Source of the DNA: Candidatus Colwelliibacteriota bacterium
GTDB taxonomy: Bacteria; Patescibacteriota; Minisyncoccia; UBA6257; Colwellbacteraceae
Length of the DNA stretch: 54,180 nt
Direction: 5' to 3'
Assembly (NCBI GenBank): GCA_028718505.1
Contig: JAQULQ010000002.1
Coordinates: forward strand, 1 to 54,180
This document shows, one piece after another, positions 7,929 through 45,594 of the stretch. Each line of letters starts with the position of its first letter. The stretch's first letter is position 1. A program made the translations under genes and the position numbers. Below the pieces are notes generated by a model. It had not been told where the DNA came from and did no database searches. It saw only the letters and a program-made list of their open reading frames with translations.

Positions 7929-8334
7929 GCTGAAATCGGATCCAGACAGTATGGGGTGGCATAGCTACTCTCACCCTGTCTGCCCACTCTACAACAACAA
8001 TGTTGTCCTCGGACAGCATTTTGTTCCATCCTAGGTCTAGCAAGTCTTTTTTGTCTATTCTGTAGGCATCTATATGATAAATGTTCCGAAACCGACTCTG
8101 TCTGGAAAGCTTAAATCGTTTAAAAATAACAAAGGTGGGGCTTGCCACCCCTTTTTTAACGCCCAAGCTTTTAATAAGGCTTTGTGTAAAAGTAGTCTTG
8201 CCCGACCCCAAATCGCCGACTAAGCCCATCGTCACTGCTCGCTCATGTTTTTTTGGGCCCACCAGCTCCTGTGCTATGGTCTCAGCCAAAGCTCTTGTCT
8301 CTCGCGCACTGCCAGAGTGTATTTTCTCACTCAT
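7888..8334 (-). CDS. tsaE: tRNA threonylcarbamoyladenosine biosynthesis ATPase TsaE
   Basis: GLVGDLGSGKTTFTQ Walker A, ASPTFVIFKRF, HIDAYRI. Confidence 0.93.
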   Translation of the reverse strand: MSEKIHSGSARETRALAETIAQELVGPKKHERAVTMGLVGDLGSGKTTFTQSLIKSLGVKKGVASPTFVIFKRFKLSRQSRFRNIYHIDAYRIDKKDLLDLGWNKMLSEDNIVVVEWADRVRVAMPPHTVWIRFQHGEKENERYITIN

Positions 8335-8830
8335 GTCTGCTAAAAACGCTGTGCTGAAGATAAATAAAAACAGCCGTGCTAAGAACTGCGGTTAAGACTC
8401 CTAGTAAAAACGGCTCGAAGGCGCCGGCGCTGAGCGAGTGGCCATTCACTATGCCGCTCTCTGCAACATTCGCCAGAAGAGGCTCCTCGACAGTGTTTTG
8501 CTGCTCCGGTAAAAATCGCCCAGAAAAGACGATCTCACCCTCGGCGACGGATTCATCATATCCCAGCTGGTCAATCGTAGCGCCTTGTTTATCGTAGAGA
8601 GAAATTTTATCTCCGCTATTATTGAGACTGATCCCGGTCTGCTTAACTTCTACGTTTTCGCCGGGCTTGATCGCCCCAAGGCTGTTCAGAGAAAATACAG
8701 CTCCGCCATTATCCTCTATTCGCCAGCCAGACACATCTTCTGTGCCATCACCGCTGTTAGCGATCCTAATCCACTCGTTGCCGGTGTCCTGGCCGATAGG
8801 GTTGGGTAATAAGCTTTCTATATAAACCAT
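8327..8830 (-). CDS. Lamin-tail-domain protein with C-terminal membrane anchor
   Basis: NEWIRIANSGDGTEDVSGWRIEDNGG...GDKISLYDKQG.TIDQLGY pattern, terminal TM. Confidence 0.78.
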   Translation of the reverse strand: MVYIESLLPNPIGQDTGNEWIRIANSGDGTEDVSGWRIEDNGGAVFSLNSLGAIKPGENVEVKQTGISLNNSGDKISLYDKQGATIDQLGYDESVAEGEIVFSGRFLPEQQNTVEEPLLANVAESGIVNGHSLSAGAFEPFLLGVLTAVLSTAVFIYLQHSVFSRHE

Positions 8831-9846
8831 TAAACTAACTGATGAGGCGGATTGAAGCCGAGGTGTTCGAAGGCCGCTATGCCGATTACCCGGCCGGAAG
8901 AAGTGCGTTTGATAAAGCCGAGCTTCATTAGATATGGCTCGTACACCTCTTCGAGAGTGGCAACATCCTCATTAAGAGCCGCGGCAACGGTTTTAATGCC
9001 AACCGGCCCCCCGCCAAATTTCTCAATAATGATTTTCAAGAAATCCCTGTCGTGCGCCTCTAGGCCTAACGGATCGACGTCCAAAAAGCGCAGTGTCTCG
9101 CGCGCTATTTCCCCATCCACTTTTTTGTGCTTATAAACTTCCGTGTAGTCACGCGTCCGCCGCAGAAGTCTGTTCGCCACCCGCGGAGTGCTGCGCGACG
9201 CTTTAGCTAGGACCTCCGCTGCTTCACTATCAAGATCGACTCCCAATATCCGGGCAGATCTTTGGATAATCTTCTTAATGTCTTCCTGGGTATAATACTC
9301 AAGTTTGAAGGTTGCCCCGAACCTAGACCGTAGGGGGGCAGAAAGCAAGTTAACACGGGTGGTCGCTGCCAGAAGACTAAAGGCAGGTAGATCTAAGGAG
9401 ATTGTTCGTGCCCCAGCTCCTTTGCCGATTACAATATTTAATTTTCTACTCTCCATAGCTGGGTAGAGCACCTCTTCTATCATCTTGTTAAGCCGGTGCG
9501 CCTCATCTATAAACAGAACCTCGCCTGCTTCTAGGTTGCTCAAAATAGCAGCAGGATCGCCAACCTTCTCAATGGCCGGGCCAGAGGTTGTTTTGACGGT
9601 AGCCCCCATCTCTTTGGCTATTAATCTGGCCAGGGTTGTTTTGCCAAGACCAGCCTGGCCATAAAGCAGAATGTGGTCAACGGGTTCTCCTCTAAGTTTA
9701 GCGGCCTCTATGATAACTCTCGCATTCTTTTTCACCTGCTCCTGTCCTATGTATTCATCCCAGCTTTGGGGCCTTAAAATAACGTCGACCGCCTGGTCGT
9801 CGCCGTTTGTTTGTCCCCCCTTACGGGCTGTTTTGTCGGTTGACAA
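8830..9846 (-). CDS. ruvB: Holliday junction DNA helicase RuvB
   Basis: RPQSWDEYIGQEQVKKN, LLYGQAGLGKTTLA, LFIDEAHRL. Confidence 0.97.
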   Translation of the reverse strand: MSTDKTARKGGQTNGDDQAVDVILRPQSWDEYIGQEQVKKNARVIIEAAKLRGEPVDHILLYGQAGLGKTTLARLIAKEMGATVKTTSGPAIEKVGDPAAILSNLEAGEVLFIDEAHRLNKMIEEVLYPAMESRKLNIVIGKGAGARTISLDLPAFSLLAATTRVNLLSAPLRSRFGATFKLEYYTQEDIKKIIQRSARILGVDLDSEAAEVLAKASRSTPRVANRLLRRTRDYTEVYKHKKVDGEIARETLRFLDVDPLGLEAHDRDFLKIIIEKFGGGPVGIKTVAAALNEDVATLEEVYEPYLMKLGFIKRTSSGRVIGIAAFEHLGFNPPHQLV

Positions 9847-9868
9847 GATAGTTTAAATATGTTATTTT
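9840..9868 (+). promoter_or_regulatory. Sigma70-type promoter for the predicted structured RNA
   Basis: TTGACA (9840-9845), 17-nt spacer, TATTTT (9863-9868); predicted start about 9875. Confidence 0.6.
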
Positions 9869-9873
9869 AGCTG

Positions 9874-10007
9874 AGGGTCAGGGGCCTGCGGGCACCGAGT
9901 CTTTTTTCGGAACACGGACGTTCCGGCTCCGGCTAGAGCTATCCCCAGAAAAGACCCTATTTCCCCTTTAGTGGGGGCCTAATCATTGCCCGCAGACCCT
10001 TGGTCCT
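9874..10007 (+). ncRNA. Predicted structured non-coding RNA, unknown family (6S-like topology possible)
   Basis: 21-position closing helix (9874-9894 with 9987-10007), inner GTCTTTT/AAAAGAC stem, hairpins CGGAAC/GTTCCG, GCTC/GAGC and CCCC/GGGG; followed by a T-rich tract. Confidence 0.6.
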
Positions 10008-10016
10008 TTTCTCCTT

Positions 10017-11696
10017 TTATTCTACCTCTCCCTTAGGCCATTTAATAGAGCCGGTGACCTTCTCTACCTCGTCCAGAGTAGTAATACCGGCTAACACCTT
10101 TAGAATGCCGTCTTCTTGCATAGAAACCATGCCTTGCTTATGAGCATAGTTCTTCATCTTTGCCTCGCTTATCCCTTGCCCAACGATTTCGTCGAAAGAA
10201 CTATCCATAGAGAACATCTCAAAAATGCCGACCCTGCCCCTGAATCCCCCCTCACACTCGCTGCAGCCGACTTCTCGATAGAGATTCCTTTTTTTGTCCC
10301 GAGGAACGGCCTTAGCCGGAAGCCTTGCATAAAAAGCGTCTATTCTTCTGGCCATGCTCTCATCGGCGGTCACCGCCGATCGACATTTTTCACACAATCG
10401 TCTTACTAGCCTTTGCGCCATTATCAAATTAATAGCCGGGGCAATACTGCCGGGTTTTACTCCTAGGTCTATCAGGCGGGGAACCGCCCCCAGAGCACTG
10501 TTGGTGTGTAAAGTAGAAAAAACCAAATGCCCAGTCAGGGCTGCATTAATGGCCGTATCAGCGGTCTCCTTATCTCTTATCTCGCCTACCAAGATCATGT
10601 CCGGATCTTGCCTAAGAGCCGAACGCAGGCCCGAGGCAAAGGTATAGCCGTCCTCTGGGCTGACTTGGGTCTGCTCAATCCCCTCTAGGTGATATTCTAT
10701 GGGGTCTTCGATAGTAACTGTTTTAATACCCGGTGAATTACCTGTTCTCAAAAAAGCGTAGAGGCTGGTTGTTTTACCGCTGCCTGTCGGACCAGTAACC
10801 AATATCATTCCGTTGGGCTGTTTAACTGCTTCCAGAACGATGGCTTCATCGTCTGCCCGAAGACCAAGATCGGCAAGCCCTAGATTAACCGTCTGCGGGT
10901 CCAGTATTCTTAGCACTACCGACTCTCCATATTCTGCCGGCATAACTGAAACTCTTGTGTCTACATCTCCCTTCTGGCGCCTAATGGTGAACCTCCCATC
11001 CTGAGGCCTATCTTTAATGTTGAGCTTAAGGTTGGCCAACAGTTTTATTCTTCCGGTGATCCGCCGATGGATATCGGCGGGGAGTTTTGCTACCTCATAC
11101 AGAATGCCGTCTATCCGAAACCTAACTGGTGCCGTTGTTTTACCGGATTCGAAATGAACATCAGATGTCTTCAGGGCGATAGCATCAGCCAAGATCTTGA
11201 CCAGGGCATCGGTAGTAGAAGTGTCCGGATCGATGTCCGTCAGATCATCAGATGCAATGACCACCGACTTGATGTTAGCTTTTGACTGTAATACTCCTTC
11301 GGCTAATCTAATCTCCGAAACGATCTCTCCACGATCTTCGACCCTGACAGAAGAATATTCACGCCATCCCTCCTCCAACCCGCTTAAGGATGTTATAGAA
11401 ATGTCTGGTTCTAATTTCTTTTCTTCGAGGAAGAGAAGCAGTTTAGCCAGCTCTCCGCTTTTTGAGGTAAGAGCAGCTAGGCCTATTCTCTTTTTATCCT
11501 TTCTAAAGGGTATAGCTCTAGCCGTCCTGGCAAGGTCCTCTGCAATTAATTCGAGAGCGCTGCGGTCAATGGCCTGCCTCCTTAGATCCAGATATGGAAG
11601 CCTTTCCTCGACCGCTCGTCTCTTGGCTTCTCTTTCCTCCGCTTCTCTCCGAATATTCTTGATCTTATCTTCTATGGGCTGCTGGCTGAATTTCAT
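10017..11696 (-). CDS. pilB: Type IV pilus / type II secretion ATPase (PilB/GspE family)
   Basis: GPTGSGKTTSLYAFL, TIEDPIEYHLEGIEQTQV, LRQDPDMILVGEIRD, CEKC...CSEC zinc motif. Confidence 0.92.
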   Translation of the reverse strand: MKFSQQPIEDKIKNIRREAEEREAKRRAVEERLPYLDLRRQAIDRSALELIAEDLARTARAIPFRKDKKRIGLAALTSKSGELAKLLLFLEEKKLEPDISITSLSGLEEGWREYSSVRVEDRGEIVSEIRLAEGVLQSKANIKSVVIASDDLTDIDPDTSTTDALVKILADAIALKTSDVHFESGKTTAPVRFRIDGILYEVAKLPADIHRRITGRIKLLANLKLNIKDRPQDGRFTIRRQKGDVDTRVSVMPAEYGESVVLRILDPQTVNLGLADLGLRADDEAIVLEAVKQPNGMILVTGPTGSGKTTSLYAFLRTGNSPGIKTVTIEDPIEYHLEGIEQTQVSPEDGYTFASGLRSALRQDPDMILVGEIRDKETADTAINAALTGHLVFSTLHTNSALGAVPRLIDLGVKPGSIAPAINLIMAQRLVRRLCEKCRSAVTADESMARRIDAFYARLPAKAVPRDKKRNLYREVGCSECEGGFRGRVGIFEMFSMDSSFDEIVGQGISEAKMKNYAHKQGMVSMQEDGILKVLAGITTLDEVEKVTGSIKWPKGEVE

Positions 11697-45243: not shown

Positions 45244-45247
45244 TGTG

Positions 45248-45594
45248 TGGAGATGGCGGGAATCGAACCCGCGTATGAACCAGTCATGAGAGAACTTGCT
45301 ACAAGCCTAGTTCAGTCTGTTTTAGATAGTGAGCTGAAGACTGAACAAAAAACTCACTACCCGGCTAGAATTAGATTTCCACAGAATCTCCCTAACCAAG
45401 AGAATCAGCGTGAGCTCGAATTATGACACCGCTACCTCCTATCCGAGCATTCGGAGAGCGATGCAGCCCTTAAGCGTAAGCCAGGGCTGGTTGACGATTT
45501 AAGTTTGCACTTATTTCGTGGCGGGGTTATTTAAGAGATCCCCGACTCTGCTTGCGGTTCTCGCAATCAATGATCCAGCTAGCCGATCATCCCC
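45248..45594 (-). ncRNA. ssrA: Transfer-messenger RNA (tmRNA)
   Basis: 5' GGGGATG pairs with 3' CATCTCC; CGCGGGTTCGATTCCCGC T-arm; tag frame GCA AAC TTA AAT CGT CAA CCA GCC CTG GCT TAC GCT TAA; adjacent to smpB. Confidence 0.95.

Follow-up and report, generated by a model that had tools for sequence, protein, structure and literature searches.

6S RNA (RF00013), Ms1 RNA of Actinobacteria and bacterial SRP RNA (RF00169/RF01854) are the described RNAs closest to a structured element that lies between ruvB and pilB in a genome of the Parcubacteria, a very large bacterial group whose members are nearly all uncultured. Ms1 illustrates that a 6S-like RNA that binds RNA polymerase can stay unrecognized and restricted to one lineage (PMC9130861). 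Neither ffh nor ffs has been found in Parcubacteria (PMC4508563), in agreement with the absence of Ffh and SRP RNA reported below.

Like 6S RNA, the ruvB-pilB RNA is predicted to be free-standing, with a housekeeping-type promoter, a similar length and a long closing helix, but it has no sequence or model match to 6S RNA and lacks the open central bubble. Like Ms1, it is a structured RNA that is confined to one lineage and keeps its gene neighbours, although the neighbours and the lineage are different and no polymerase binding is known for it. Like bacterial SRP RNA, it is a single-copy RNA that includes an irregular hairpin with a tetraloop cap, whereas its loop is UNCG rather than GGAA, the SRP core motif is missing, and Ffh and FtsY were undetected in the genomes examined. 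The open-licence papers searched contain no report of a ruvB-pilB RNA, and Rfam searches miss it.

Results

Location and promoter of the ruvB-pilB RNA gene

The window (the whole stretch of 54,180 nucleotides that was analysed) contains the structured RNA gene on the plus strand at 9874-10007, measured from P1 to P1'. The gene matches R1, a covariance model built from six relatives, with 131.5 bits at 9873-10010, its structure covaries in 40 loci, and it has one copy in the source genome. Because ruvB (8830-9846; PF05496, E = 1.5e-67) and pilB, which encodes a type II/IV secretion ATPase (10017-11696; PF00437, E = 1.1e-120), are both on the minus strand, the RNA gene is divergent from ruvB and convergent on pilB. 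Elsewhere on the minus strand of the window, a lamin-tail-domain protein (PF00932) is encoded at 8327-8830 between ruvB and tsaE, a neighbour that recurs in many relatives, and a tmRNA gene (RF00023, 127 bits) lies at 45245-45594.

A σ70-type promoter, TTGACA-N17-TATTTT, is located on the plus strand at 9840-9868 (TTGACA, 9840-9845; TATTTT, 9863-9868; extended TG, 9860-9861), with a predicted transcription start at about 9875. It is the sole σ70-like match in the surrounding 600 nt (9600-10200), agreeing at 10 of 12 positions where 0.4 such matches are expected. Promoter and T-tract counts were made on the 83 homologous loci having enough flank, with the mirror strand as control. A promoter of at least 9/12 is found upstream of the helix in 76/83 loci and in 17/83 on the mirror strand; TTGACA is exact in 67/83 and the extended TG is present in 65/83. 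A first-pass annotation, made from the sequence of the window, had located this promoter, and its conservation in 76 loci bears that out.

The 3' strand of the closing helix runs into a U-rich tail at 10006-10018 on the plus strand, read directly from the sequence and anticipated by the same annotation, which presumably acts together with P1 as an intrinsic terminator. At least six T in eight nucleotides occur at the 3' end in 50/83 homologous loci, compared with 20/83 on the mirror strand. With a span of 130 nt, the inverted repeat of P1 is unlike a classical terminator hairpin, which counts against the explanation preferred below.

Secondary structure of the RNA

The element (134 nt) folds at −61.5 kcal/mol with a z-score of −3.6, and none of 200 dinucleotide shuffles folds as well. 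Its closing helix, P1, is formed by 9874-9894 and 9987-10007; of the 21 positions, three are G-U wobbles and one is a mismatch (C9885 × A9996). Double changes are found in 18/18 modelled pairs and 97.6% of cells are paired; the inner part, CUGCGGGC, is the most conserved portion of the helix. The first-pass annotation had given P1 exactly these coordinates and had proposed its conservation as a check, and the helix is indeed kept and covaries in relatives.

Inside P1, helix P2 pairs GUCUUUU (9899-9905) with AAAAGAC (9949-9955), and P4, a side hairpin of CCCC-UUUAGU-GGGG, occupies 9963-9976. Both had been recognized in the annotation and are present in the sequence. P2 (helix 3 of alignment A3) has double changes in 6/6 pairs with 91.5% of cells paired, and P4 (helix 5 of A3) has double changes in 4/4 pairs with 91.6% of cells paired. 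In alignment A3 and constrained folds, P2 is separated from P3 by an asymmetric internal loop (9906-9915), which has the form UUAG plus 4–5 nt opposite UC in most relatives and has diverged in the source genus. P3 (9916-9944) is a hairpin of GGA-C-GUUCCGGC-UCCG-GCUAGAGC-UA-UCC with a UNCG-type tetraloop. Its general form in relatives is GGA-N-8bp-UNCG-8bp-NN-UCC, with 95–98% of cells paired. The two apical hairpins of the first-pass annotation exist as inverted repeats, but relatives pair only 63% and 69% of their cells. Because P3 is kept and is mutually exclusive with them, they are replaced here by the single UNCG-capped hairpin. A pseudoknot between UUAG of the P2/P3 internal loop and CUAA of the junction was weakly supported (9.08 versus 8.59 ± 0.26 in cross-pairings, of which 9/300 were as high) and is not claimed.

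Covariation, strand and coding potential

In the 40-locus alignment, which had been fitted to the covariance model, standard pairs fill 94.9% of pair cells (72.0% after shuffling) and double changes occur in 35/40 pairs. The covariation score is 0.686, compared with 0.223 for shuffled alignments, none of 500 of which reaches it, and it is at most 0.185 when the partner is slid by one column. The main fold is also recovered from a structure-blind MAFFT alignment, at −81.7 kcal/mol for the plus strand and −71.6 kcal/mol for the minus strand.

Per-sequence folding z-scores are better on the plus strand in 31/40 loci. The annotation had noted that the G-U wobbles favour the plus strand, and relatives extend this: G-U cells number 172 and A-C cells 31, an excess that indicates the plus strand to be the functional RNA. 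Apparent model matches on the minus strand (17–42 bits) are P1 seen in mirror image. The longest stop-free frame per locus is only 26–52 codons among the 40 loci, indicating that there is no conserved reading frame. Paired positions are more conserved than unpaired positions (0.87 versus 0.54 bits), with peaks at the inner P1 CUG-GGG, the GGA/UCC pairs and the UGGCUNCGGCU hairpin.

Distribution and gene order

By DNA similarity, the two other genomes of the genus both contain the element between ruvB and pilB, and weaker matches occupy the corresponding ruvB-pilB position in other genera of the family. R1, trained on six of these, finds the RNA in 23/27 genomes of the family and 141/200 of the order, usually as a single copy. 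A second model, R2, built from 40 loci, finds it under strict filters in at least 171/384 genomes of the class. With laxer filters applied to 37 genomes, 13 of the 36 that had earlier given no match now match, so 171/384 is a minimum. That some members of the class give no match, where the RNA may have diverged, been lost or been removed by the filters, counts against the explanation preferred below. A phylum-wide sample yielded 11/380 matches, nine within the class and two borderline ones (24 bits) outside it, and thus doubles as a specificity control. The core pattern of the RNA had no match among viral contigs. Named loci come from Colwellbacteria, Harrisonbacteria, Portnoybacteria, Paceibacterota and other Parcubacteria; genome sizes among the Parcubacteria searched are about 0.4–1.4 Mb.

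The order ruvB-RNA-pilB is kept at nearly all loci, including those in other families of the class, and the divergent orientation to ruvB and the convergent one to pilB recur almost everywhere. At L096, L119, L122, L127, L137 and L138, the RNA adjoins pilB and a gene other than ruvB lies on its other side. One genome (G017) has a second, diverged copy (L147, G017:C6:9846-9974, minus strand; 57.8 bits) between genes read as rny (RNase Y) and hup (HU), and that copy is followed by a terminator hairpin that is strong and separate from it. Loci without ruvB and the second copy at rny-hup argue for an independent RNA gene and against a cis-element. Together with covariation, promoter conservation and the G-U bias, the comparisons uphold the annotation's proposal of a free-standing structured RNA on the plus strand with its own promoter.

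Relation to known RNA families

The first-pass annotation could assign no family, and the Rfam scan that it suggested likewise gave none. Rfam 15 (4227 models, including RNase P RNA and tmRNA) has no match to the element or to two homologues, and the region searched up to E = 10 returned nothing except two chance matches on the minus strand.

The annotation had also noted a resemblance to 6S RNA, which did not hold up. RF00013 has no match in 9780-10080 at E ≤ 10, and the homologues L012 and L019 are unmatched at E ≤ 5. The source genome carries a distinct 6S candidate at another site, G000:C1:43047-43133 (L033:1501-1587), and two congeners have one as well (L031, L032). The candidates score 26.5–28.7 bits with RF00013, below the gathering score of 46.4, and carry the GGGAGACCU / CACCCACCUGG signature, of which the CACCCACCUGG strand is the 6S hallmark. 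The candidate has a closing stem and a terminator, adjoins genes read as aspS and ndk, and is likely the 6S RNA of the source genus. RF00013 has no match in the other 58 relatives, so 6S RNA in the order is either diverged or missing. R2 does not match the 6S candidate loci. In the ruvB-pilB RNA, P2 begins four nucleotides after P1 and the P4 hairpin lies in the junction, which leaves no 6S-like open central bubble. Identity with 6S RNA was rejected on the lack of an RF00013 match, on the separate candidate and on the failure of R2 to match that candidate.

The SRP RNA models (RF00169, RF01854) do not match the ruvB-pilB RNA. None of 21 relatives yielded SRP RNA, Ffh or FtsY; the Ffh M domain (PF02978) was found in 0/21 of them and in 1/380 genomes of the phylum, compared with 14/14 controls. 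The sole genome of the phylum sample with an Ffh M domain is G814 (L150, G814:C179), possibly on a foreign contig. Identity with SRP RNA was rejected because there is no model match, no AGCA/GGAA signature and no Ffh. A link between presence of the RNA and loss of SRP was also dropped, because Ffh is absent phylum-wide and the RNA is confined to one class. The RNA is not read as a replacement for SRP, since the rest of the phylum lacks Ffh and also lacks the RNA.

Discussion

The ruvB-pilB element is probably a free-standing gene for a constitutive, trans-acting structured RNA of about 135–165 nt, ancestral to the class Paceibacteria (Parcubacteria); we put the probability of this reading at roughly 0.6. 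Comparison of homologous sequences establishes the predicted gene, its plus strand, fold, promoter, synteny and range in the class. A conserved promoter of its own (76/83 loci) and a covarying secondary structure are what is found in free-standing structured bacterial sRNAs. We infer that the gene gives rise to a stable transcript and that this transcript serves as the RNA component of a ribonucleoprotein, not as an antisense sRNA or part of a cis-element. RNA polymerase would start at about 9875 from the extended −10 σ70 promoter. The transcript would comprise the 21-bp closing helix P1, a long irregular P2-P3 hairpin that contains the asymmetric UUAG/UC internal loop and is capped by a UNCG tetraloop, and a further one or two side hairpins; it probably ends at P1 and the U tract. 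A protein partner may bind the inner P1 and the P2-P3 hairpin.

Seed-type sRNAs are expected to conserve an unpaired stretch. The conserved letters of the ruvB-pilB RNA are mostly in paired positions, a pattern that points to a protein-binding RNA, by analogy with 6S, SRP and similar RNAs, and for this reason the RNA is read as a constitutive trans-acting ribonucleoprotein RNA. This pattern also bears on the unlikely explanation that the RNA is a trans-acting antisense sRNA whose conserved UCCUC beside P3, or whose junction, pairs with mRNA ribosome-binding sites. Most loci keep UCCUCG, which is complementary to the Shine-Dalgarno-like GAGGA, but at nearly every locus its UCC forms the base of P3 together with the invariant GGA. 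An RNA of 6S or Ms1 type, which would bind RNA polymerase by mimicking promoter DNA, is rather unlikely. The size of the RNA, its long closing helix, the position of a side hairpin on the 3' strand and its own σ70 promoter, together with the precedent of Ms1 as a lineage-restricted polymerase-binding RNA that can go unrecognized (PMC9130861), are consistent with such a function, whereas the failure of RF00013, the distinct 6S candidate that the source genome and two congeners carry, the lack of an R2 match to those candidates, and the closed junction argue against it.

Preserved gene order across the class, and a minus strand that by itself also folds well, would suit a cis-element, that is, a minus-strand ruvB leader or attenuator, or a bidirectional terminator separating pilB from its neighbour. 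A ruvB leader would always lie upstream of ruvB and on its strand; the RNA is on the opposite strand, to which the G-U bias and the promoter also belong, and it persists without ruvB and at rny-hup, making a cis-element improbable. A divergent SRP RNA or another Rfam housekeeping RNA is hardly credible: SRP RNA does go undetected in the genomes examined, but its partner Ffh is also missing, as published for Parcubacteria (PMC4508563), and both the AGCA/GGAA signature and any Rfam match are lacking. The reading as a free-standing ribonucleoprotein RNA is itself opposed by the tight linkage to pilB, which could hint at a local role.

The RNA is best read as a new family, every test of family membership made here having been negative, of a broad kind, the free-standing structured RNA, that is already known. 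It occupies one conserved site in much of the Parcubacteria, has a promoter of its own and matches no catalogued family, and so is probably an unrecognized core RNA of these tiny bacteria. It is possible, though doubtful, that it is an ancestral core ribonucleoprotein RNA specific to Parcubacteria, of the rank of 6S RNA or tmRNA, that carries out a cellular task by a mechanism unseen in other bacteria, in organisms from which SRP has been lost. The covariance model and the coordinates make transcription, partner and role of the RNA directly testable. A structured RNA gene held in one place across a class of reduced genomes likely performs an important task.
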